This document shows, one piece after another, positions 398-27,070 of a stretch of DNA of 28,343 nucleotides. Origin of the DNA: a virus; the IMG/VR virus record IMGVR_UViG_3300037343_000529, positions 1 through 28,343 of that record; one strand, written 5' to 3'. Every line of letters starts with the position of its first letter. The first letter of the stretch is position 1. The notes below the pieces were generated by a model. That model made no database searches. It saw only the letters and a list, made by a program, of their open reading frames with translations, and had not been told where the DNA came from. The position numbers and the translations under genes are program-made.

Positions 398-545
398 GGA
401 ATCCACTTGGAATCCACCTGCGCCATTTTAGCCATGATTAACACTTAATATCATAAGCTTACGCGATCACCTCGCTGGCTAAGCTGGATTCTTTTTGGAA
501 TCCACCTTAGCCAGTTTAGCCAGTTTGAGGAATCCACCTTGGCCA
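398..545. repeat. Cluster of GGAATCCAC repeats with a 16-bp inverted repeat
   Basis: Four direct copies of GGAATCCAC(C/T)T occur at 398-410, 409-420, 497-507 and 529-540. The copies at 407-434 and 495-522 extend to 28 bases and match at 25 positions, each ending in TTTAGCCA or its equivalent. A reversed copy, TGGCTAAGCTGGATTC at 476-491, pairs with GAATCCACCTTAGCCA at 498-513 over 16 bases with one mismatch and a 6-base spacer. The block lies in a stretch with no gene. It could be a binding array for a phage regulator, replication iterons, or a fragment of a dispersed intergenic repeat; nothing here decides between them. Confidence 0.6.
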
Positions 546-573
546 AAAGCCACATTGGAAGCCAACAAAGAAA

Positions 574-594
574 AATGTGACTCTGATTCACATT
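574..594. promoter_or_regulatory. CRP/FNR-like dyad operator candidate
   Basis: AATGTGA at 574-580 and TCACATT at 588-594 form a perfect 7-bp dyad around a 7-base spacer. The half sites equal the CRP half site TGTGA/TCACA, but CRP sites have a 6-base spacer, so the regulator is uncertain. The site ends five bases before the first TTGACA box, a fitting place for an activator or repressor. Confidence 0.45.
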
Positions 595-599
595 CTGTG

Positions 600-645
600 T
601 TGACATTTCTAGCCCCCTTGACATACCTATTAATCATCGAAGAAT
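600..645 (+). promoter_or_regulatory. Tandem TTGACA boxes, putative sigma-70 promoter
   Basis: TTGACA occurs at 600-605 and again at 618-623 within a repeated 12-mer (TTGACATTTCTA and TTGACATACCTA). The second box has AAGAAT (640-645, four of six matches to the -10 consensus) after 16 bases. The first box has no good -10. Either could serve the methyltransferase operon that starts at 771. Transcription from the second box would begin within the hairpin at 647-674. Confidence 0.35.
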
Positions 646-646
646 T

Positions 647-678
647 GCGCCCGGAGGATATACCTCGCGGGCGTTTTT
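647..678 (+). terminator. Intrinsic terminator or attenuator before the methyltransferase operon
   Basis: The arm GCGCCCGGAGG (647-657) pairs with CCTC plus CGGGCGT (663-673) with one bulged G and one G-U pair, around the loop ATATA. It is followed by TTTTT and then GTTT. This is a normal rho-independent terminator for rightward transcripts. Lying about 95 bases before the methyltransferase start, it can stop read-through from upstream or act as an attenuator on the operon leader. Confidence 0.65.
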
Positions 679-770
679 GTTTCCCCCACATCGCGGACCC
701 CGATCCTGTCGCTGGCCATGTTGCCCGCGCGCATCGGCACGTCTGCCCTGCCCCAAATGAGAACCGCCCC

Positions 771-2030
771 ATGGACCTGGTCTTTGCACCGAGCCAGATC
801 GAGACCTGGTCTCTCGACCGGCTGCGGCCCTATGCCCGCAACGCCAAGATCCACGGCACCGATCAGGTGGCCAAGATCGCGGCAAGCATGGCGAAGTTCG
901 GCTGGACCGTGCCCTGCATGGTGGCCGACGATGGCGAGCTGATCGCCGGGCATGGGCGGGTGCTGGCGGCTGCGATGCTGGGGTTGAAGGACGTGCCGGT
1001 GATCCGGCTCAGCCACTTGGACGAGGCAGAGCGCCGCGCCTATCGCATCGCCGACAACAAACTGACCGAGCTGGGCGAATGGGACGAGGCGATGCTACGC
1101 GACGAAATCGCCGGGCTGCTGGCCGAGGATTTCGACCTGTCGCTGCTGGGCATCACCGATCAGGATCTGGACGCCTTGCTGCGGGATCCGGATCAGGTGG
1201 AAGGTGGAGCTGTCGAGGGCGAGGATGACATTCCCGAGCCGCCGGTCACGCCGGTGTCGGTCGCGGGCGACCTGTGGCAGCTCGGGTCGCACCGGTTGAT
1301 CTGCGGCGACAGCACGTCCGCCGATGTAGTCGGACGTCTGCTGGGCGATGTGCGGCCGCTGTTGATGGTGACCGATCCACCCTACGGCGTGGAGTACGAT
1401 CCCTCCTGGCGCAACCAGGCGGGTGCGGCCAAGACCAAGCGCACCGGCAAGGTGCTGAACGACGACCGGGCAGACTGGCGCGAGGCTTGGGCGCTGTTCC
1501 CCGGCGATGTCGCCTATGTCTGGCACGGTGCGCTGCACGCGGCAGAGGTGGCCGAGAGCCTCATGGCGGTAGGCTTCAACGTCCGGTCGCAGATCATCTG
1601 GGCCAAGGACAGCCTAGTTTTCAGCCGTGGCGATTACCACTGGCAACATGAACCCTGCTGGTATGCCGTCAAGAAGACCGGCAAGGGCCACTGGGCGGGC
1701 GACCGCAAGCAGACCACGCTATGGAAGATCGCCAACAAGGACCAGGACGCTACCACGATCCACAGCACCCAGAAGCCGGTCGAATGCATGCGCCGCCCGA
1801 TGCTGAACAATTCCAACCCCGGTCAAGCGGTGTTTGAGCCATTTATGGGATCCGGCACCACGCTGATCGCGGCGGAAACCACCGGCCGGGTGTGCTTCGG
1901 GATCGAATTGAACCCCGCATATGTCGATGTGGCCATCGAGCGCTGGCAGCAATTTACCGGCGCGACTGCCGTACTGGCGGAAACGGGCGAGACCTTTGCC
2001 GACCTGAAAGCCAAGAGGCTGGCAGCATGA
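771..2030 (+). CDS. ParB-like domain DNA methyltransferase (DPPY type)
   Basis: A 419-residue protein with two parts. Residues about 10-135 form a ParB/sulfiredoxin-like domain with GELIAGHGR (55-63) and YRIADNKLTELG. Residues about 165-400 form an S-adenosylmethionine-dependent methyltransferase with catalytic motif IV DPPYG (202-206) and, later, the cofactor-binding motif FEPFMGSGTT (355-364); motif IV before motif I is the beta-class order. DPPY usually means N6-adenine methylation. The start at 771 is chosen because extension upstream runs through a terminator and promoter-like boxes; no good ribosome binding site is seen. No restriction partner is visible, so it is an orphan enzyme, likely shielding phage DNA or affecting gene expression. 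Its stop overlaps the next start as ATGA. The target sequence cannot be read from the protein. Confidence 0.9.
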   Translation: MDLVFAPSQIETWSLDRLRPYARNAKIHGTDQVAKIAASMAKFGWTVPCMVADDGELIAGHGRVLAAAMLGLKDVPVIRLSHLDEAERRAYRIADNKLTELGEWDEAMLRDEIAGLLAEDFDLSLLGITDQDLDALLRDPDQVEGGAVEGEDDIPEPPVTPVSVAGDLWQLGSHRLICGDSTSADVVGRLLGDVRPLLMVTDPPYGVEYDPSWRNQAGAAKTKRTGKVLNDDRADWREAWALFPGDVAYVWHGALHAAEVAESLMAVGFNVRSQIIWAKDSLVFSRGDYHWQHEPCWYAVKKTGKGHWAGDRKQTTLWKIANKDQDATTIHSTQKPVECMRRPMLNNSNPGQAVFEPFMGSGTTLIAAETTGRVCFGIELNPAYVDVAIERWQQFTGATAVLAETGETFADLKAKRLAA

Positions 2031-3391
2031 ACGCGCCCCTCTTGCCGGGCCAAATTCAGCACTGGCCGCTGGCCCGGCTGAAACCCTACGCCCGGAACGC
2101 CAAGACCCACGATGCCGATCAGGTCGCCAAGATCGCTGCCAGCATGGCGGAGTTTGGTTGGACGGTGCCGGTGCTGGTGGCCACCGATGGCGAGCTGATC
2201 GCGGGGCACGGTCGCATCCTGGCCGCCGCCCATCTCGGGCTGACCGACGCGCCGGTGATTGTGCTGGGCCATCTGACCGAGGCGCAGCGGCGAGCCTACC
2301 GCATCGCGGACAATAAGTTAACGGAGCTGGGTGGCTGGGATGAAGCCCTGCTCTTGCAGGAACTGCAGGCGCTTCTGGCAGAGGATTTCGACCTCGGGCT
2401 GATCGGGATTCCGGAAGATGAACTGGATGCCCTGCTGGCGGATGCCGACGATCGCCCGGCGATTTCCGACGATGCGGCGGATGCCATCCCCGAACCGCCT
2501 ACTGAGCCCATCACCCGCCCCGGCGATATCTGGGCACTGGGCAAGCATCGGCTGTGCTGCGGCGATGCAACTGATCCCACCGCCGTGGCCAAGCTGATGC
2601 AGGGCGAACAAGCGACGCTGATGTTCACCTCGCCGCCCTATGCACAGCAGCGCGACTACGGCGCGGCAAAGGAAAAGGTCGGTGATTGGGATGCGCTGAT
2701 GCAGGGCGTGTTCACCGCCGCCCCGGTCACAGCCGACGCGCAGCTGCTGGTTAACCTCGGCCTCGTGCACCGCGACAGTGAATGGCAGCCCTATTGGGAA
2801 GGATGGGTCGAATGGATGCGCACCTCTGGCTGGCGACGCTTTGGCTGGTATGTGTGGGATCAGGGTCCGGGCCTGCCGGGCGACTGGAACGGCCGCCTGG
2901 CCCCGTCGCACGAGTTCATTTTCCACTTCAACCGCGCGCCCCGCAAACCGCACAAAACGGTGCCATCGAAGCACGTGGGCGAAACTTTGGGCGGCGGTGG
3001 GCTGCGCGGCGCAGACGGCACCGTCCACGCCAAAACCGGCACCGGCAACGCGATCCAGAGCCACCGCATCCCGGACTCGGTTTTCCGCATCATGCGCCAC
3101 AAGGGTGGGCTGGGTGCGGCAGGATCCCATCCGGCCGTGTTCCCGGTGGCACTGGTCGAAGCAGTGCTGACGGCGTTTTCGGATCCGGGCGACCTGATTT
3201 ATGAGCCGTTCTGCGGCTCCGGCACCCAGCTGGTCGCCGCCGAGCGCGCTGGGCGACGCTGCTTCGCGATGGAGCTGGACCCGGTCTATTGCGACGTCGC
3301 GGTGCGGCGGTGGGAAATGGCGACGAGCAATGTAGCGCTGCGCGAGCGCAAGGGCGTAACCGTTGATGAATTGGAAGGAGCGGCAGAATGA
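2027..3391 (+). CDS. ParB-like domain DNA methyltransferase (TSPPY type)
   Basis: A 454-residue protein built like its neighbour: a ParB-like domain (about 8-140, with GELIAGHGR and YRIADNKLTELG), then a methyltransferase domain with motif IV TSPPY (201-205) and cofactor motif YEPFCGSGTQ (392-401). SPPY is typical of N4-cytosine methylases, so it probably modifies a different base from the upstream enzyme. The N-terminal domain aligns without gaps to that of the first enzyme at about three quarters identity by eye, while the catalytic halves differ outside the motifs. This points to duplication of the DNA-reading domain followed by domain exchange. The start overlaps the previous stop (ATGA), indicating coupled translation. 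Confidence 0.9.
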   Translation: MNAPLLPGQIQHWPLARLKPYARNAKTHDADQVAKIAASMAEFGWTVPVLVATDGELIAGHGRILAAAHLGLTDAPVIVLGHLTEAQRRAYRIADNKLTELGGWDEALLLQELQALLAEDFDLGLIGIPEDELDALLADADDRPAISDDAADAIPEPPTEPITRPGDIWALGKHRLCCGDATDPTAVAKLMQGEQATLMFTSPPYAQQRDYGAAKEKVGDWDALMQGVFTAAPVTADAQLLVNLGLVHRDSEWQPYWEGWVEWMRTSGWRRFGWYVWDQGPGLPGDWNGRLAPSHEFIFHFNRAPRKPHKTVPSKHVGETLGGGGLRGADGTVHAKTGTGNAIQSHRIPDSVFRIMRHKGGLGAAGSHPAVFPVALVEAVLTAFSDPGDLIYEPFCGSGTQLVAAERAGRRCFAMELDPVYCDVAVRRWEMATSNVALRERKGVTVDELEGAAE

Positions 3392-15749: not shown

Positions 15750-16691
15750 ATGGCACGAGCTCAAGGAGCGCGGGCGCAGATGGCGCTTGCGTTCGAGACG
15801 ACCTATGGCACCCCGCCCGCCAGCGGTTTTACCCGCATGCCCTTCGCCAGCGCGACGCTGGGGGCGGAACAGCCGCTTCTGAACAGCGAGCTTCTGGGCT
15901 ACGGCCGCGACCCGCTGCCACCGATCAAGGATGCGGTGACGGCGGACGGCAATCTGGTCGTGCCGGTCGACGCGCAGGCGTTTGGCTTCTGGCTGAAGGC
16001 GGCCTTTGGCCAGCCAGTCACCACTGGGGCGCAAACCCCCTGGACCCACGAGTTTCGCTCGGGTGGCTGGACCCTGCCGTCGCTGTCGATCGAGACAGGC
16101 ATGCCGGAGATCCCGCGCTTTGCAATGTACTCGGGCTGCGTGCTTGATACGCTCAGCTGGCAGATGCAGCGCTCGGGGCTTCTGACCGCAACCGCCAGCC
16201 TTGTGGCGCAGGGCGAGAGTATCGCTGCCGCATCCGCTGCGGGCACGCTGGCCGATCTCGGTCTGCAGCGCTTCGGCCATTTCAACGGATCGATCACCCG
16301 CAACGGCAGCAGCTTGGGCAACATCGTCTCGGCCGAGATCACCTATGCCAACGCCCTCGACCGGGTCGAGACCATCCGCTCAGACGGGCGCATTGATGGG
16401 GCGGACCCATCCATCGCTGCACTTACCGGCCGGGTCGAGGTGCGGTTTGCCGACCAGGTGCTGGTTAACCAGGCGATCGACGGCGACCCCTGCGCGCTTG
16501 AGTTTGCTTACGTGCTGCCGTCAGGCGAGAGCCTGACGCTGACCGCCCATGCCGTCTATCTGCCACGCCCGCGCATTGAGATCTCTGGACCACAGGGCGT
16601 GCAGGCCACCTTCGACTGGCAGGCCGCGCGTGACAGCACGCTGGGCCGGATGTGCACCGTTATTCTGATCAACGGCATTGAGGAGTATTGA
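15750..16691 (+). CDS. Major tail tube protein
   Basis: A 313-residue protein beginning ARAQGARAQMALAFETTYGTPP, a common start of tail tube proteins in alphaproteobacterial phages, followed by alternating beta segments and WTHEFRSGGWTLPSLSIETGMP. Hexamers of such proteins stack to form the tail tube. AAGGAG lies eight bases before the start. It stands between the tail terminator and the assembly chaperone genes, the normal position. No extra Ig-like domain is evident. Confidence 0.88.
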   Translation: MARAQGARAQMALAFETTYGTPPASGFTRMPFASATLGAEQPLLNSELLGYGRDPLPPIKDAVTADGNLVVPVDAQAFGFWLKAAFGQPVTTGAQTPWTHEFRSGGWTLPSLSIETGMPEIPRFAMYSGCVLDTLSWQMQRSGLLTATASLVAQGESIAAASAAGTLADLGLQRFGHFNGSITRNGSSLGNIVSAEITYANALDRVETIRSDGRIDGADPSIAALTGRVEVRFADQVLVNQAIDGDPCALEFAYVLPSGESLTLTAHAVYLPRPRIEISGPQGVQATFDWQAARDSTLGRMCTVILINGIEEY

Positions 16692-16693
16692 CC

Positions 16694-17131
16694 ATGCTGC
16701 GCCTGAACCTCGCCCGCGAGCCCTACTGGCTCAATCTTTGCCTTGGCGTGCGCGTCCGGGTCGAACCGTTGACCACCGCGCTGATGGTGGCGGCGCGCAG
16801 CGACCCGGCTGTGCGCACCCTGCCTGAGGGCACCAGCGACGACGAAATCGCAGTGATCTTCGGCAAGGTCCTGGCCGAACGCGCCATTCTCGACTGGGAG
16901 GGTGTCGGCGATGCAGACGGCACACCAGTGGCAGTGACGCCTGAAGGCATCGCTGCACTGCTCGATATCTGGCCAATCTTTGAGAAGTTCCAGATGGGCT
17001 ACGTCGCCAAGGGGCTGGAGCTGGACGCGGAAAAAAACGCCTCCGCGCCCTTGCCGATTGGGTCTACGGCGGGGGCGAAGGGTATTGCGCGGTCTGCAAA
17101 GGGCCGTGCCCGGACTGCCCGCAAGTCGTGA
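16694..17131 (+). CDS. Tail assembly chaperone, short form (gpG-like)
   Basis: A 145-residue protein with a helical body (LRLNLAREPYWLNLCLGVRV, ...EGIAALLDIWPIFEKFQMGYVAKGLELD) and, after residue 115, a basic low-complexity tail. It lies between tail tube and tape measure genes, where siphophages encode a chaperone that coats the tape measure during assembly. The frame contains the slippery heptamer A AAA AAC at 17032-17038; ribosomes slipping there make the long form. GAGGAG precedes the start; a TTG at 16688 would add two residues. Confidence 0.85.
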   Translation: MLRLNLAREPYWLNLCLGVRVRVEPLTTALMVAARSDPAVRTLPEGTSDDEIAVIFGKVLAERAILDWEGVGDADGTPVAVTPEGIAALLDIWPIFEKFQMGYVAKGLELDAEKNASAPLPIGSTAGAKGIARSAKGRARTARKS

Positions 17132-17370
17132 ATGCACCGCGCACGTATGAGGGCTGGCAGGTCTGGGATCTTGCCGGACGGCTCGGCGGCCAGATCCGCG
17201 CCATACCCGGCGTTGTGCTGGGCTGGGACATGAGCGCGGCACTGGCCATGGCGGATGCACTGGGCATCGATCCGCGCGCAGCGGCCGAACTGCTACCCGT
17301 CCTTGAAGCAGTGATGGCGCGCAAACTTAACGAGCAAATGGATGCACCCGGGGGAGGACAACATGGCTGA
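16694..17370 (+). CDS. Tail assembly chaperone, -1 frameshift product (gpGT-like)
   Basis: Slipping back one base at 17032-17038 joins the first 115 codons to the frame that ends at 17370, giving about 225 residues. The added part runs RLRALADWVYGGGEGYC, then AVCKGPCPDCPQVVN and the segment EGWQVWDLAGRLGGQIRA. This protein-like reading extends unbroken upstream of the GTG at 17128, which is why the downstream frame is better seen as an extension than as a separate 80-residue gene. The cysteines in YCAVCKGPCPDC suggest a small metal site. In lambda, gpG and gpGT are made this way; the T part binds the tail tube protein. Separate initiation at 17128 cannot be excluded. Confidence 0.8.
17032..17077 (+). 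promoter_or_regulatory. Programmed -1 ribosomal frameshift signal
   Basis: The heptamer A AAA AAC (17032-17038) is in the correct register of the short-form frame (GAA AAA AAC). Seven bases later a 10-bp stem begins: CGCCCTTGCC (17046-17055) with GGCGGGGGCG (17068-17077), including two U-G pairs, around a 12-base loop. Heptamer, spacer length and stem all match known bacterial -1 signals. Confidence 0.85.
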
Positions 17371-19816
17371 GAAGCGGGTTTCTGTGCGCCTGTCCGCCAC
17401 TGGAGGGCGGCAGGTGAAGGCCGAGCTGGAAGGCGTCGGCGAGGCTGGTGCGCGCGGGTTTGGGCGGCTGTCGCGCGAAATGGAAGGCGCGAATGCCCGG
17501 CTGGCTGCCTTTGCGCGGCGCGCTCGCGTGGCAATGGCCGCAGCTGCCGCCGCAATCGCGATCGCAGCGACTGCGATGATCCGCTCAGGGCTGCAGACAG
17601 TTGATGCGCAAGCCAAGCTGGCCGCCTCGCTCGACACCACGGTCGAGAGCATTCAGGTTCTGGAGCGCGCGGGCGATCTGGCGGGCGTGTCGATGGGGCA
17701 GATCGAACAGGCCACCATGCAGCTGACGCGGCGGCTGAGCCAGGCCGCTGCGGGCACCGGGCCTGCTGCGGACGCGCTTGACCGACTGCGCCTGTCGGCG
17801 GCCGAGTTGCAAGCGCTGCCGCTCGATCAGCGTATCGCGCTTATTCAGGAGCGACTGGCAGAGTTCGTGCCCGAAGCCGAGCGCGCCGCGGTAGCCTCGC
17901 AGCTGTTTGGTGATCGTGCTGGTCTGGTGTTCACCCGCATTGATACGGCCACGCTGCGCCAAGCCACGCAAGATGTGCGCGACTTCGGGGTGGTGGTCTC
18001 CGATCAGGATGCCGCGCAGATTGAGCGGACCAATGATGCGATCTCGCGACTGGGTCTGATCTGGCGAGGGCTGTCAAATCAGCTGGCTGTTGCAGCCGCC
18101 CCTGCGCTCGAGGCCGTGGCTGGTGCGATGGCTGCTGTTGCGCGCACCACAGGGCCGCTGGGTGTTGCGATCCGCACACTCTTTGAGAATCTCGGGCGCC
18201 TGACTGCCTACGCGACCGGTATCGCAACCCTGATGGCAGGCCGGTTCGTGGCGGCCAAGATCGCGGCAGCTGTTTCGGTCCGGGGGCTCGCGATGGCACT
18301 GGTGATCCTGCGCGGGGCACTGCTGCGCCTGCCCTTTATCGCCTTGATCGTCGGGGCGGGAGAACTGGTCCACTGGTTCGGTCGCCTCGTGCGCGGCGCG
18401 GGCGGCTTTGGCACCGCGCTGTCGCTGCTGGGCGATCTCGCCCGCGAGGTCGCGGAACGCATGGCGCTGGGCACGCTTGCCATGGGTCTGCGGATCATCG
18501 CCAGCTGGTCCGAGATCAAAGCCAGCATCGCCGAGGCACTGCAGACCTCGCTCGCGGCCGTGGTCGGCTTTGGCAATGCTGTGCTCAACACATTCCAAGG
18601 CGCGTTTGAGGCGGTCAAGGTGCTTTGGGGCGCGCTGCCGGGCACGATCGGGGATTTCGCATTCCAGGCGGCCAATGCGCTGATCGCGGGTGTTGAGGCC
18701 ATGCTCAATGGTGTCGGCGAGCGCATCAATGGGTTTTTGGAGGGGATCAACACAGGGCTTGAGGCGCTGGGTGTGGAGCGCCGGGTGTCGCTGATCGGCA
18801 ATCTGGAGCTAGGCCGGATCGATAATCCATTTGAAGGATCCGCGACCGAGGCGGGCTCCCAAGCACGCGCGGCATTCCAGGCAGCCTTCACGTCCGACCC
18901 GATTGCACTGCCGGATCTCGGGCTCGGCCAATACGCATCCGATGCCCGCGCTGAGGCAGCTGCGCTGCGCGAGATGATGGCCGGTGTTGTCGGTGCCGCG
19001 ACGGCTCCGCTCGAGTCGGTTGCGGCACTTCGGGAGGCCGTAACTGCGAGCGGGCTGGCGGCGGAGGCAGGGCTGAATGGCGCGCGTGCGGCTGCCGAGG
19101 CGCTGGAAGATACGCTGGAGGCCACAGAAGAGGCAGCAGGCGCTGCGGGCGCAGCAGGGCGCAGCGCTGGCGAAGCGCTGCGGGACGGCGCTGATACGGC
19201 GCGCACTGCATGGGAGGCAACTGCGGACGCAGTGCGCGCAGCGCAGGAACGCTCCCGTGAGATTGCCAAAGGTCTGGCGCAGGACATCACCGGCCCTATC
19301 AAGGAGGCACTCAAATCTGGCGAGTTCAGCTGGCAGACATTCGCCAGTGCCATTGCAGGTATCGCGGGGAACCTCGCCAACCGGCTGATTGATCTCGCCT
19401 TCAAGCCGATCGAGAACGCGCTGATCAGCGCCTTTTCCGGCGGTGGCGGGGGTGGTGGCTTCCTCGCGAGCCTGTTCGGCTTTGCGAAGGGCGGTGTCTT
19501 TGCGGGTGGCCAGGAACTGACCGCCTTCGCCCGGGGCGGCGTCGTCACCCGACCAACGGTGTTTCCCTTCTCGCGTGGTATCGGACTGATGGGCGAGGCA
19601 GGGCCCGAGGCAATCCTGCCTCTCCGGCGCGGCCGGGGCGGGCGGCTTGGCGTTGAGATGAACAGCGAGGGTGCGGCCTCTGCAGCCCCATCTATGTCTA
19701 CCCGGATCATCAACGTGCTCGACCCGTCGATTGTTGGCGACTACCTCGCCACGCCCTCTGGCGAACGCGCGATCCTGAACGTCATCCGCCGCAATCGTGG
19801 GGCGATCAATGCCTGA
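17363..19816 (+). CDS. Tail tape measure protein
   Basis: An 817-residue protein that sets tail length and is ejected with the DNA. The N-terminus (VSVRLSATGGRQVKAELEGV) leads into long alanine-rich helices with a hydrophobic stretch at about 57-73; another hydrophobic region lies near 300-340. The C-terminal part has a glycine run and the typical FAKGGVF, FARGGVVTRPTVFPF and GEAGPEAILPL segments. GGGGGAGG before 17363 fixes the start; an ATG at 17342 lies upstream of this site. Lambda's gpH has 853 residues. The gene overlaps the chaperone frame and the next gene by eight bases at each end. Confidence 0.95.
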   Translation: MAEKRVSVRLSATGGRQVKAELEGVGEAGARGFGRLSREMEGANARLAAFARRARVAMAAAAAAIAIAATAMIRSGLQTVDAQAKLAASLDTTVESIQVLERAGDLAGVSMGQIEQATMQLTRRLSQAAAGTGPAADALDRLRLSAAELQALPLDQRIALIQERLAEFVPEAERAAVASQLFGDRAGLVFTRIDTATLRQATQDVRDFGVVVSDQDAAQIERTNDAISRLGLIWRGLSNQLAVAAAPALEAVAGAMAAVARTTGPLGVAIRTLFENLGRLTAYATGIATLMAGRFVAAKIAAAVSVRGLAMALVILRGALLRLPFIALIVGAGELVHWFGRLVRGAGGFGTALSLLGDLAREVAERMALGTLAMGLRIIASWSEIKASIAEALQTSLAAVVGFGNAVLNTFQGAFEAVKVLWGALPGTIGDFAFQAANALIAGVEAMLNGVGERINGFLEGINTGLEALGVERRVSLIGNLELGRIDNPFEGSATEAGSQARAAFQAAFTSDPIALPDLGLGQYASDARAEAAALREMMAGVVGAATAPLESVAALREAVTASGLAAEAGLNGARAAAEALEDTLEATEEAAGAAGAAGRSAGEALRDGADTARTAWEATADAVRAAQERSREIAKGLAQDITGPIKEALKSGEFSWQTFASAIAGIAGNLANRLIDLAFKPIENALISAFSGGGGGGGFLASLFGFAKGGVFAGGQELTAFARGGVVTRPTVFPFSRGIGLMGEAGPEAILPLRRGRGGRLGVEMNSEGAASAAPSMSTRIINVLDPSIVGDYLATPSGERAILNVIRRNRGAINA

Positions 19817-22156: not shown

Positions 22157-22371
22157 CGCGTGTGACAATCCAGGACCTGCGCGATGCGCGCTATTGCCTC
22201 ACGGGCGTGCGGCCTTGGTTTCGCCGCCACGGCCTCAATTGGCAGCACTTTCTGGATCACGGCATCGATGCCGACGGGCTACGCGCGACCAATGATGCTC
22301 TTGTGGAGCCGGTGATCCGGGTCGCGGAGATGCGCGCAGCAACGCAGGAGGCCAGCGATGGGCGGGCGTAG
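22153..22371 (+). CDS. Small conserved protein before the tip gene
   Basis: A 72-residue protein, TIQDLRDARYCLTGVRPWFR followed by RHGLNWQHFLDHGIDADGL. The same pattern (a D-L-R-x-x-x-x-C-x-x-G-x-x-x-W-F core and a L-x-W-x-x-F-L-x-x-G-I segment) occurs in small proteins encoded next to tip genes in many phages, without known function. Coupled to the upstream gene by ATGA and overlapping the tip gene by 14 bases. Confidence 0.7.
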   Translation: MTRVTIQDLRDARYCLTGVRPWFRRHGLNWQHFLDHGIDADGLRATNDALVEPVIRVAEMRAATQEASDGRA

Positions 22372-25300
22372 CAAGGCTCAGACCGTCGGATATCGCTATT
22401 CTCTGGGCGTGCATCTGGCGCTCTGCCACGGGCCGATCGATGCCATCCGCGAGATCCTCGTTGATCGCCGGACCGCGTGGTCTGTCACGACCGGGGGTGG
22501 TTTCAGCGGCGGCGGTGCGGCCGTCGAGAACCGGATTGGGACCGCCCTGGCGATGACGGCCACCGCCGCGCTGGCGGGCGACAGCGGGGCGACCATCACC
22601 TTCCCCGGCACGCGCGCGAGTGTGCGGATCGGGCGGGATTATCGCCTGGTGCTGGCAAACGGGTCGAGCCAGACCGTGACGCTGCAGGGCGTGGCTTTCA
22701 ATGCAACCACTGGCGTCACCTCATGGTCTGTCCTGCCCGAGGCGCTGAGCTTCCCGGCGCAATCGGTCGAGGTGTTGGAGGCCACGCAGGGCGCCAACAA
22801 CGCTGGCGCGGGCGGTGGACGCATCCGGATCGACAAGCCAGACCTCTTCGGCGGTGAAAGCCGCGAGGGCGGTATTGTTGGCGATGTCGACGTACTGATG
22901 GGCGGGCCTGCACAAGGGCAGAACGACTACCTTGCTACCCGCATGAACCGAGACCTGCCCGGCTATCGCGGGCTCTGCAGTCTGGTGCTGCGGCAGGTGT
23001 ATCTGGGGATCAATCCCTACCTGAAGCCATGGGCGGTGCGCGTGACGCGGGTGCTGGTGGGTGAGGCAGGCGCTGCGCAATGGTATCCCGACAAGGCACC
23101 CATTGTGCCGGAGGCCAACATCTCCGATGCGGCGATCTACATCGCACTCGATGTCTCAGGCTCGATGTCGGGCACGCGCATGGCGGCGCAGAAGGCAGGT
23201 GTCGCAGCCCTCATTCGCGAGATCAGCGCAGGCGTCGATCCTGACCGGCCGAACGACATGCGCATTGTGCTCTGGAACGCTGGCGTCGCGGGACTGATCG
23301 AACGACGCAACATGGAGCCCGAGGATTACACCGCGCTCGAGGCCTGGATGCTGGCGCTGTCCAACGGCACATCGGGCGGCACCAGCTTCGATGCCGCCTT
23401 CTCGCAGGCAGGCGCATTCTTTGCCGGTGGCGGATCGAAGCGCCGGATCGTCATCTTCGTGACCGATGGCGAGCCATCGCCTGTGTCGTCCGTGGATGCG
23501 GCACTCGCCACGATCGCCACACTGCCGCCTGCCGACATTTTTGGGTTCAACATCGCGCTCGCCAACACCACCTTCACCGCGCGCATTGACAACACGCCCG
23601 TGGACGGCGTGCCGGTGATCCCGCCCGGTAACCCTGAGGCGCTGGTCGCATCGCTGCGCGGGGCGTTCGGCAATGGGCCTGACATGAACCCGGCCCATAT
23701 TATCCGCGAGTGCCTCACGAACCGCGATTGGGGATTGGGCTATTCTACGATCGAGATCGGAGCCAGCTTCACGGGCGCGGCCGACCGGCTTTATATCGAA
23801 GGCTTCGGCCTCTCACTGATCTGGCAGCAGGACAGCTCGATCGAGGAGTTCATCGGCAGCGTTCTGGACCACATCGATGCGACGCTCTTCATCGACCGCC
23901 GCACCGGGCTGTGGGAATTGAAAATGATCCGGGCGGATTATGTGGCAGCAAACCTGCCGCTCTTCGATGAGACCAATGTCGTGGACTGGGGCCGCCTGGG
24001 GCGGCGCGCGCCCTCCGATCTGATCAACAGCGTCACCGTGCGGTTTACCGATGCCTGGACGAATGATGTTGGCGCTGTCAGCGTCACCGATACCGCACGG
24101 GTGCAGGCGATGGGCGAAGTAATTGCCACCACGCTCGACTATCCGGGCATTCGCTATCAGGGGTTGGCGGTACGCGTGGCCGAGCGCGATCTGCGCGCGC
24201 TCTCGGTGCCGCTGCTGACCGGCGAGATTGTCGTCAATCGCGAGGGCGCTGACCTCGGCCCCGGCGACGTGATCCGGTTGCGCTCGGACCGGCTGGGGCT
24301 GGGCGACGTGGTCATGCGCATCTCCGAGATCGGTCAGGGTGACGGCCGCGATAACGGCATCCGCCTGAAGCTGGCAGAAGATGTCTTTGCCTTGGGCATA
24401 ACGGCCATCGCGGGCGGGCGCATGCCCTCCGGCACCGGGATCGCCGCCCCGCCGCGCGCGCTGGCCCGGCGTCTGGTGGAAGAAGCACCGTATTGGCTGC
24501 TCGTGCGCGAGCTGGGCCACAGCGAAGCGGATACCATTTTGAGCGAGGATCCGGCCGCAGGCGCGATTGTTGCGACGGGTGAGCGGCCGAGTGCGGATGC
24601 GCTGGCGGCCGAGCTCTGGATCGATCCTGGCACCAGCCCGGCACAGGAAGGGGTCGTAGCCTTCGCGCCAACGGCATTGTTGGCCGCAGACCTCTCTGAT
24701 GATCCGGAGGCGCGAGTCATCCCCGTCACTGGCTGGCGCGACATTGGTGAAGTCGGCATTGGCACTCTGGCCAGCATTGGCGGTGAACTCATCCGCATCG
24801 ACGGCATAACGCAAACCGCGATCACCGTAGGCCGCGGCTGCCTCGATACCGTGCCCCGCGCGCATGCGGCGGGCACACCGGTCATCTTCTTCGACGAGGC
24901 GGCGCGGATCACTGAGGACTCCTGGGCGGCGGGCGAGACCCTTGCGGTTCGGCTTCTGCCCGAGACTGGTCGCGGCACGCTGGCGTTTGCAATGGCGCCG
25001 GAAGATAGCGTGACCCTGGATCGCCGCGCCATCCGGCCACTGCCGCCGGGTCGGGTGCAGGGCAATGGCAGCTACACTCCCGATGTCGACGCGCTGATCA
25101 GTGATGACCTGGTGCTGACCTGGACCCATCGCGACCGGCTGACCCAGACCAGCCCGGTCATCGTCGATCACACCGGCGCCTCCATCGGGCCTGAACCGGG
25201 GGTGGAATACAGTGTCGAGGTCCGCTGGGTCGATCCGGACACCGGCGCAGCGATCCTGCCCGCGGGCATCGTGATCGACGCAGGTGCCGGGACCAGCTGG

Positions 25301-25489
25301 ACCCTCACGCCCGACGACATCCCTGAGAGTGGCGCGCCGGAACGCACCGCTGAGATCGATGTCGCAATCCGGTCCCGCCGCCTCGTGGAAGGTGCGTGGC
25401 TCACCGACCGTGAGGCGCGAAGCTTCCGCCTGACGGCCCCCTTCGCCGCCGGGTGGGATCGGGGTTGGGGATTTCTCTGGGGCAGCTGA
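22358..25489 (+). CDS. J-like tail tip / host-specificity protein with VWA domain
   Basis: A 1043-residue protein. The N-terminal GGRSKAQTVGYRYSLGVHLA and the parts PDLFGGESREGGIVGDVDV, GINPYLKPWAVRV and MNPAHIIRECLTNRDWGLGY are the conserved hub of the J-type tip family. Two stretches interrupt it: residues about 43-152, and about 258-440. The second is a complete von Willebrand factor A domain with metal-site motifs DVSGSMSG (265-272), GGTS (T342) and VTDGEPSP (D370). The C-terminal third is beta-rich, ending with a fibronectin-type-III-like region. The protein should make the tail point and contact the host. AGGAGG precedes the start. Confidence 0.92.
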   Translation: MGGRSKAQTVGYRYSLGVHLALCHGPIDAIREILVDRRTAWSVTTGGGFSGGGAAVENRIGTALAMTATAALAGDSGATITFPGTRASVRIGRDYRLVLANGSSQTVTLQGVAFNATTGVTSWSVLPEALSFPAQSVEVLEATQGANNAGAGGGRIRIDKPDLFGGESREGGIVGDVDVLMGGPAQGQNDYLATRMNRDLPGYRGLCSLVLRQVYLGINPYLKPWAVRVTRVLVGEAGAAQWYPDKAPIVPEANISDAAIYIALDVSGSMSGTRMAAQKAGVAALIREISAGVDPDRPNDMRIVLWNAGVAGLIERRNMEPEDYTALEAWMLALSNGTSGGTSFDAAFSQAGAFFAGGGSKRRIVIFVTDGEPSPVSSVDAALATIATLPPADIFGFNIALANTTFTARIDNTPVDGVPVIPPGNPEALVASLRGAFGNGPDMNPAHIIRECLTNRDWGLGYSTIEIGASFTGAADRLYIEGFGLSLIWQQDSSIEEFIGSVLDHIDATLFIDRRTGLWELKMIRADYVAANLPLFDETNVVDWGRLGRRAPSDLINSVTVRFTDAWTNDVGAVSVTDTARVQAMGEVIATTLDYPGIRYQGLAVRVAERDLRALSVPLLTGEIVVNREGADLGPGDVIRLRSDRLGLGDVVMRISEIGQGDGRDNGIRLKLAEDVFALGITAIAGGRMPSGTGIAAPPRALARRLVEEAPYWLLVRELGHSEADTILSEDPAAGAIVATGERPSADALAAELWIDPGTSPAQEGVVAFAPTALLAADLSDDPEARVIPVTGWRDIGEVGIGTLASIGGELIRIDGITQTAITVGRGCLDTVPRAHAAGTPVIFFDEAARITEDSWAAGETLAVRLLPETGRGTLAFAMAPEDSVTLDRRAIRPLPPGRVQGNGSYTPDVDALISDDLVLTWTHRDRLTQTSPVIVDHTGASIGPEPGVEYSVEVRWVDPDTGAAILPAGIVIDAGAGTSWTLTPDDIPESGAPERTAEIDVAIRSRRLVEGAWLTDREARSFRLTAPFAAGWDRGWGFLWGS
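23129..23677 (+). other. von Willebrand factor A domain within the tip protein
   Basis: Codons 258-440 of the tip gene. Hydrophobic strand IYIALDVSGSMSG (MIDAS motif 1, D265, S267, S269), a helix, strand MRIVLWNAG, the threonine motif GGTSFDAAF (T342), strand RRIVIFVTDGEPSP (D370) and strand DIFGFNIAL follow in the order of VWA domains. All five metal-site residues are present, so it should bind Mg2+ or similar and a ligand carboxylate. The flanks (QWYPDKAPI before, MNPAHIIRECL after) are adjoining parts of the ordinary tip fold. Confidence 0.88.
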
Positions 25490-25529: not shown

Positions 25530-26204
25530 ATGCCGGAACGGATCATGCCGGGGCTGGGGCTGCGCGCCTTCTATGACCCCGGCCAACGCAACTGGGGGAC
25601 CAGCCTCAGCGAGGACCTGCGCCTCGTCTCCACCCTCTTGCAAGCGCGCGCTGCATCGCGCAGCACGCCTCTGCCCGCTAGTGGCAGCGCGGGCCAAATT
25701 CTGATCGTGCCCGCCGCGGCAGGCGCTAATGCCAATGCCGTCGCGCTCTGGGACGAGGTAGACGGAACCGCGGCATGGGTCTTTCTGCCCGCGCAGGATG
25801 GCTGGCAATTCTGGATCGCCGACGAGGCCCGGCATGTCCGCTTCGCGGGCGGGGCATGGGTCGAGGTGCCGCGCCCCGGCGTCGTGCGCATCCGCACCCT
25901 GACCGCCACCAGCCACACGCTCGACGCCAGCGATCTGGGCAGCATCATTGAGACCACAGGCTCCTCAGCCGTCACCGTGACGATCCCGGATGAGGCAACC
26001 GTGCCCTTCGAGACCGGCGCGCTGATCAATGTCACCCAGATTGGCACGGGGGTTGCGACGCTCACGGCATCAGCTGGCGTCTCGCTAAACGGCATCACTG
26101 CCGGATCGGTCGCGCTGGATGGGCAATGGTCGGGGGCAGCACTCACCAAGCGCGGGGCGGATGCCTGGGTCATTCAGGGCGCGCTGGCAGGAGCCGTCGC
26201 ATGA
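25530..26204 (+). CDS. DUF2793-type tail fibre protein
   Basis: A 224-residue protein. Residues about 40-125 (PLPASGSAGQILIVPAAAGAN, ...WVFLPAQDGWQFWIADEARHVRFAGGAWVEV) resemble the DUF2793 domain of phage tip and fibre proteins. The rest (HTLDASDLGSIIETTGSSAVTVTIPDEA...) looks like a beta-rich fibre shaft segment with L-D-x-x-D-x-G type turns. It follows the tip gene as host-range proteins do. AGGAC lies upstream of the start. Coupled to the next gene by ATGA. Confidence 0.75.
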   Translation: MPERIMPGLGLRAFYDPGQRNWGTSLSEDLRLVSTLLQARAASRSTPLPASGSAGQILIVPAAAGANANAVALWDEVDGTAAWVFLPAQDGWQFWIADEARHVRFAGGAWVEVPRPGVVRIRTLTATSHTLDASDLGSIIETTGSSAVTVTIPDEATVPFETGALINVTQIGTGVATLTASAGVSLNGITAGSVALDGQWSGAALTKRGADAWVIQGALAGAVA

Positions 26205-27070
26205 GCATTCTGATGATGCGCGCCGCGATCCTGGCGCAAGGCGGCGCTGCGGCACCCCCCGAGGATATCGGCAGCGCCTGGGAACTCGACGCGACCCGCC
26301 GCCCTGCAGGCTACGCGCTCTCAGACGGCAACCAGACCGCAATCAACACCTCGGGCGGCACCAACTACCTGCGCTGGGTGCCAACCGTCAAAGCCATCCA
26401 GCCGACGGACGGGCGGCGCTATTGGGAAGTATTTTGTGCAGCCAGCGGGGCCGCCACCTTCAATGGCTATCTCGGCGTCGTCTCGGCCCCTCAACGTGAT
26501 GAGTACAACATCGGGAACAACCCGATCACGCTCGGCTCCATTGGCTATCGTGGCAACGGCACACTTTGGTCCTCTAATACGGCGTCAGCTTCCCAGCGCG
26601 TGACAGGCCTTCCAACCTATGGTGCGGGCGATGTGCTGATGTTTGTGCTCGATCCCGCTGCCGCCAGTCTCTGGATTGGCAAGAACGGCATCTGGCACGA
26701 CGATCCAGTGAGCGGCGCGCCCACCTGGACCGCAGGCGGCAGCACCGCCTTCCATCCACATATCCAGGGACGCAATCCGGGAGATGGCGGCACCCTGCGC
26801 TCGCAGCCATCGCAGTTCAGCTATCCGGTTCCGCCTGGGGCGCAGGCGCTGAGCTTCGAGGAGCCAGATCTCTCAATATTCGAGACGCATGCCTTCATCG
26901 AGTTCGGCTGGGACAACGACCTCAGCATCAGCGAGTTTGAGGCCTGGCTCGATCTCGGCGGCGGCGCGAATCTCAACTCTACCGGAACCTCGCTCTTTCT
27001 TGATCATGGTGGGGGCAAAGCGCTCTCCACCGCCCATTCTGCCCTTTATATCGAAGTGGAACTGCCATGA
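26201..27070 (+). CDS. SPRY-like domain fibre protein
   Basis: A 289-residue protein. Residues about 30-210 form a SPRY/concanavalin-like beta-sandwich: RRYWEVFCAA, FNGYLGVVSA, SIGYRGNGTLWSS, GDVLMFVLDPAAASLWIGKNGIWHDDP, and FHPHIQGRNPGDGGTLRS. Such domains bind sugars or proteins, so a receptor-binding role at the tail tip is likely. The last 80 residues (SIFETHAFIEFGWDNDLSISEFEAWLDLGGG) form a separate domain. The true start is the ATG at 26201, overlapping the previous stop; an upstream in-frame start at 26126 is unlikely because it lies inside the preceding gene. Confidence 0.75.
   Translation: MSILMMRAAILAQGGAAAPPEDIGSAWELDATRRPAGYALSDGNQTAINTSGGTNYLRWVPTVKAIQPTDGRRYWEVFCAASGAATFNGYLGVVSAPQRDEYNIGNNPITLGSIGYRGNGTLWSSNTASASQRVTGLPTYGAGDVLMFVLDPAAASLWIGKNGIWHDDPVSGAPTWTAGGSTAFHPHIQGRNPGDGGTLRSQPSQFSYPVPPGAQALSFEEPDLSIFETHAFIEFGWDNDLSISEFEAWLDLGGGANLNSTGTSLFLDHGGGKALSTAHSALYIEVELP

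Follow-up and report, generated by a model that had tools for sequence, protein, structure and literature searches.

Programmed −1 frameshifts in the G/T gene pair are textbook knowledge for tailed phages, and the slippery heptamer of phage lambda reads G GGA AAG. The lambda G and GT tail assembly chaperones were described by Xu, Hendrix and Duda (2004; cited in PMC3711429; reviewed in PMC5009743). According to the review, gpG and gpGT are produced at about 30:1, with G binding the tape measure protein and T binding the tail tube subunit (PMC5009743). A second group of described systems comes from the RcC phages of Rhodobacter capsulatus, in which a homologous pair, lying in the interval between the tail tube and tape measure genes, has previously been entered as a single CDS joined across the frameshift; the paper on these phages states that tail chaperone genes are the usual place for the frameshift (PMC8601537). 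Here, we analyzed a stretch of 28,343 nt of viral DNA (IMG/VR record IMGVR_UViG_3300037343_000529; hereafter, the window), which comes from an alphaproteobacterial phage and almost certainly carries a G/GT gene for tail assembly chaperones of the lambda type, expressed by programmed −1 ribosomal frameshifting. This assignment is comparative: it draws on the slippery heptamer and its register, the downstream stem, the conservation of the −1 frame as protein, and the position in the genome.

Genomic context and layout of the locus

The locus lies on the plus strand, as do its two neighbors, between the gene for the major tail tube protein (15750..16691; Phage_tube_2, E=2.3e-56) and that for an 817-aa tail tape measure protein (17363..19816; phrog_8462, E=1.7e-170). 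ORF G, the 0 frame (16694..17131), starts with an ATG at 16694, two bases past the tail tube gene, and runs to a TGA at 17129-17131, encoding a gpG-like tail assembly chaperone of 145 aa that is conserved in >100 relatives. It matches phrog_313 (E=1.8e-19), and its homologues in the RcC phages are annotated as chaperones. An earlier note, made from the sequence of the window without database searches, had proposed that this is the site at which lambda-type phages make the G and GT chaperones, and both the neighboring genes and the phrog_313 match bear this out. The head genes of the window are lambda-type as well, comprising a gpA terminase, a lambda-family portal, an S49 protease, a gpE capsid protein and an FII-like connector. 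Searches of the PDB by sequence and by fold gave no significant match for either G or T. Among viral models, the best fold neighbors of the T model were “tape measure chaperone” proteins of enterobacteria phages (probability 0.99), a likeness that, at an E-value of 0.046, is suggestive only.

Several other features of the genome were recorded alongside. The tape measure protein (17363-19816) resembles that of the gene transfer agent RcGTA (NF058675, below the cut-off). Further downstream, a large tail protein of 1043 aa (22358-25489; Phage-tail_3) also matches, over residues 261-372, the von Willebrand type A domain, which is unusual in a tail protein, and an ORF 3' of the tail genes (26126-27070) has a weak SPRY-domain match below the cut-off. 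At the other end of the window, two successive overlapping ORFs in different frames (495-3391) both match the DNA methylase family N6_N4_Mtase.

Within ORF G, in the frame of ATG 16694, codons 113-115 are GAA AAA AAC (17030-17038; E-K-N), so that the heptamer A AAA AAC (17032..17038) has the phasing (X XXY YYZ) that a tandem −1 slip requires. The heptamer is followed by a spacer of 7 nt (17039..17045), whose length is fixed within the clade of the window, and by a predicted stimulatory stem with a 5' arm CGCCCUUGCC (17046..17055) and a 3' arm GGCGGGGGCG (17068..17077). The two arms form 10 bp without a mismatch, two of which are G-U, and the minimum free energy (MFE) fold adds an 11th pair, closing a loop of 10 nt. 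The register, spacer and hairpin that the earlier note had described are thus present in the sequence exact to the base. Read after the slip, the −1 frame continues as CGC CTC CGC GCC ... (RLRALADWVYGGGEGYC...) up to a stop at 17368-17370, by which point the tape measure gene has already begun. This T segment (17038..17370) encodes 110 aa plus the stop, matches DUF7697 (E=1.5e-25), and is predicted to be made as a G-T fusion. It overlaps the end of G, with which it shares the DNA of the final 30 codons of ORF G 3' of the slip site, and lacks a start codon that could serve at the junction: the open stretch of the −1 frame reaches from 16983 to the stop at 17370, and no ATG, GTG or TTG occurs in it before the GTG at 17128, codon 31 of T. 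A gene caller would list a small GTG-start ORF of 80 aa here (17128..17370).

Conservation of the slippery heptamer and downstream stem

Considered by itself, the window is weak proof of frameshifting. The sequence AAAAAAC occurs once against 0.53 expected occurrences, and 41 of 100 shuffled sequences contain it at least once; the fold of the 52 nt 3' of the heptamer has a z of −1.19 against dinucleotide shuffles. We therefore rejected both heptamer and hairpin as significant from the window alone, and the stem, taken alone, is nothing unusual for GC-rich sequence. The case is instead carried by comparison with relatives, which the earlier note had named as a check.

We collected relatives from viral contigs with G and, separately, with T, and anchored the heptamer counts on T. 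Among 99 distinct viral relatives, the junction heptamer was AAAAAAC in 94, GGGAAAC in 3 and AAAAAAA in 2. As an independent set, we used (pro)phage loci in bacterial genomes, found by means of patterns drawn from the distal end of T, a region well removed from the heptamer; here, 78 of 79 loci had AAAAAAC in register, the lone exception having Ns beside the site. Overall, A AAA AAC is present in about 97% of 178 distinct sequences, with another slippery heptamer in nearly all of the others, the reverse of the absence from related phages that the earlier note would have taken as refutation; distant relatives recruited across the class through DUF7697 have either AAAAAAC or GGGAAAC where G meets T. 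The codon usage of G (GAA 0.349, AAA 0.322, AAC 0.634) leads to a joint expectation of ~7% for GAA-AAA-AAC, so that the near fixation of this triplet of codons indicates strong synonymous constraint. A few contigs deviate: L065 has one A fewer at the site, L134 has eight (2985-3001), one more than usual, so that its G and T share a frame, L262 (reverse strand) has the G tail and T in a single frame, and L193 has Ns flanking the slip site. The simplest explanation for these deviations is an error in sequencing the homopolymer, although they may also represent real loss; in L262 and L134, the G frame appears to continue directly into the T frame with no shift, either through such an error or as a genuine in-frame fusion.

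The stem is conserved to a similar degree. All 10 standard pairs are kept in 59 of 64 non-redundant sequences, and at least 9 of 10 in 98% of the 64, compared with 5.7% under a null model in which the −1-frame codons were resampled at family usage (mean, 6.6 pairs); the mean local MFE was −26.7 kcal/mol for the 64 sequences and −17.3 kcal/mol for the resampled ones. Codon 12 of T is GGG in 58 of the 59 cases in which it encodes glycine, as opposed to 14% GGG elsewhere in T. In the clade of the window, the 0-frame tail of G overlaps the stem, and dual coding could contribute to its conservation. Changes in the stem within this main clade are chiefly C-G/U-G and U-G/U-A exchanges, with two pairs altered on both sides. 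In a group of relatives with low GC content (the human faecal L005 and the metagenome contigs L244-L249), the stem has diverged, and two pairs are altered on both sides, from G-C to U-A and from C-G to U-A; pairing of the outer helix is 100%, and the covariation exceeds that of almost all shuffles and of every slide. In three distant relatives, the 0 frame ends one codon past the slip (L258:1330-1339; L269:1294-1303; L264, reverse strand), so that there is no dual coding, and strong stems are nonetheless found, with z values against codon-resampled controls of −2.6 for L258, −3.1 for L269 and −3.3 for L264, which has GGGAAAC. Together with the compensatory changes of the low-GC group, these stems argue that dual coding is not the whole cause of the conservation. 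The early stops also indicate that the 30-codon gpG tail of the clade of the window is dispensable. A downstream stimulatory structure, which is common but not universal at G/GT sites, is therefore well represented here, and the proposal of a gpG/gpGT-like −1 frameshift is supported by the conservation of heptamer and stem as well as by the start of T homology at the slip codon, discussed below.

T as an extension of G

In phages of cultured hosts, homology to T sets in with the codon that directly follows the slip, residue 1 of the query being aligned in the RcC phages. Protein-level conservation extends over the ~30 codons of the −1 frame that lie 5' of GTG 17128, where R1, W8, G13 and Y16 as well as cysteines are invariant, as expected from the earlier observation that this frame reads as protein-like well before any start codon. 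These data bear on an alternative in which G and T are two independent overlapping genes, with a small T of unknown function separately initiated at GTG 17128. An 80-aa ORF with a GTG start is indeed present, and the library families Pfam DUF7697 (PF24752) and phrog_11212 span only the distal 52-55 residues of T (17203..17355; T residues about 53-106), as they might if T began internally. Such coverage, however, is the remainder to be expected after gene calling based on start codons. A separate T would leave the conservation of the upstream codons unaccounted for; moreover, the first start codon in relatives is scattered, mostly between T codons 30 and 76, with no conserved place, whereas the heptamer is conserved precisely at the onset of T homology. 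We consider a separate T highly improbable, and the ORF at 17128..17370 is most likely not an independent gene.

The other alternative keeps the fusion and moves the slip to transcription, with RNA polymerase slipping on the A7 run to yield a fusion mRNA. A run of seven As does exist in the window and in most relatives, yet the junction is the same in the GGGAAAC relatives, where there is no long run of As, and a downstream stem that keeps a constant distance of 7 nt and shows compensatory changes is in keeping with pausing of the ribosome; transcriptional slippage is accordingly left with very little probability. Ribosomal frameshifting within a G/GT gene thus remains the reading by which we interpret the locus.

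This interpretation gives an identity to families listed as being of unknown function: DUF7697 and phrog_11212 are the distal part of T, which is a new assignment, and can now be recognized as belonging to the distal T half of a tail chaperone made by frameshifting. Gene callers remove 30-75 conserved residues from the N terminus of T, and the cysteine motif with them. The earlier statement that standard gene calling would miss the fusion applies to Synechococcus phage Sc-Yong805-1, where G and T are entered as two separate hypothetical proteins, but not to the curated RcC phages with their joined CDS.

The motif in question, CxxC-x3-CxxC (C17, C20, C24 and C27 of T; 17086..17118), was identified in T alignments. 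In 35 T sequences, C17, C20 and C27 are invariant and C24 is present in at least 90%, and all four cysteines are invariant in a set of 30 T sequences. The start of T follows the pattern Y-C-x2-C-x(n)-C-x2-C-P, in which the inserts between the two CxxC halves vary in length. The structure model of T has moderate confidence at the motif (pLDDT 60-70), and a literature search for zinc motifs in such chaperones turned up nothing of relevance among the hits consulted. The motif is probably a small metal-binding knuckle. Since it lies entirely 5' of the start codon that a gene caller would pick, only GT can carry it; and because it is encoded wholly in the region translated by frameshifted ribosomes, metal binding would be a property of GT that gpG lacks.

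Proposed mechanism and slip-site sequence

We propose that the majority of ribosomes would read ORF G to its stop at 17131, yielding gpG of 145 aa. A minority would move one base back, with the tRNAs on AAA AAC of A AAA AAC slipping, aided by the stem ~7 nt downstream of the heptamer, and would go on in the −1 frame to yield gpG(1-115)-T, of about 225 aa. By analogy with lambda, GT would be the minor product, the G part would coat the tape measure protein, and the T part would recruit the tail tube subunit.

The slip sites seen at this junction end in AAC, rarely in AAA and never in AAG. In E. coli, A_AAA_AAG slips far more readily than A_AAA_AAC (PMC5009743), and the low slipperiness of the latter counts against the frameshift reading. 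The final C of the heptamer is also the first base of the codon (CGN) for the invariant Arg1 of T, which may partly explain why the sites end in AAC. We also considered whether AAC is used in place of AAG owing to the presence of a separate tRNA-Lys(CUU) in the hosts. A corresponding pattern was seen in 10 of 11 alphaproteobacterial genomes with a DUF7697 match (the CTT gene being confirmed by ARAGORN in 8), but not in the six Rhodobacteraceae genomes tested, so that the tRNA idea fails for the main clade. Tentatively, and with somewhat less than even confidence, we suggest that the locus represents a widespread alphaproteobacterial family that combines slip sites ending in AAC, poor in E. coli, with a GT-only knuckle; if this is true, metal binding by GT could serve as a handle for recruitment of the tail tube.

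Comparison with known systems

The locus shares with lambda G/GT its place in the gene order, with the tail tube gene before it and the tape measure gene after it, a short G ORF with T overlapping in the −1 frame, a slippery heptamer, and lambda-type head genes in the same window. It differs in the heptamer, which is A AAA AAC rather than lambda's G GGA AAG, in the 30-codon 0-frame tail over T, and in a T that starts with CxxC...CxxC and contains DUF7697. The combination of an A-rich heptamer and a downstream stem is also found in E. coli dnaX (A AAA AAG), but the last codon in the window is AAC, not AAG, and the protein is unrelated. A dnaX-type site with an upstream Shine-Dalgarno element was rejected: no such stimulator is conserved ~10 nt upstream in 64 sequences, where GGAG (17017-17020) has its A at the key position in just 22, and AAGGG (17009-17013), about 18 nt upstream of the heptamer, is too distant.

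The R. capsulatus RcC phages (RcKai, RcOceanus, RcKemmy and others; PMC8601537) have the same gene order, with ~41% identity in G and ~52% in T. Their heptamer is G GGA AAC where the window has A AAA AAC, and their stem has A-U in place of the G-U pairs. Given that the pair is known from lambda and that its RcC counterpart is annotated as a joined CDS, the frameshift at this locus adds a well-supported new case to a mechanism that tailed phages were known to use, and is not in itself a new phenomenon.
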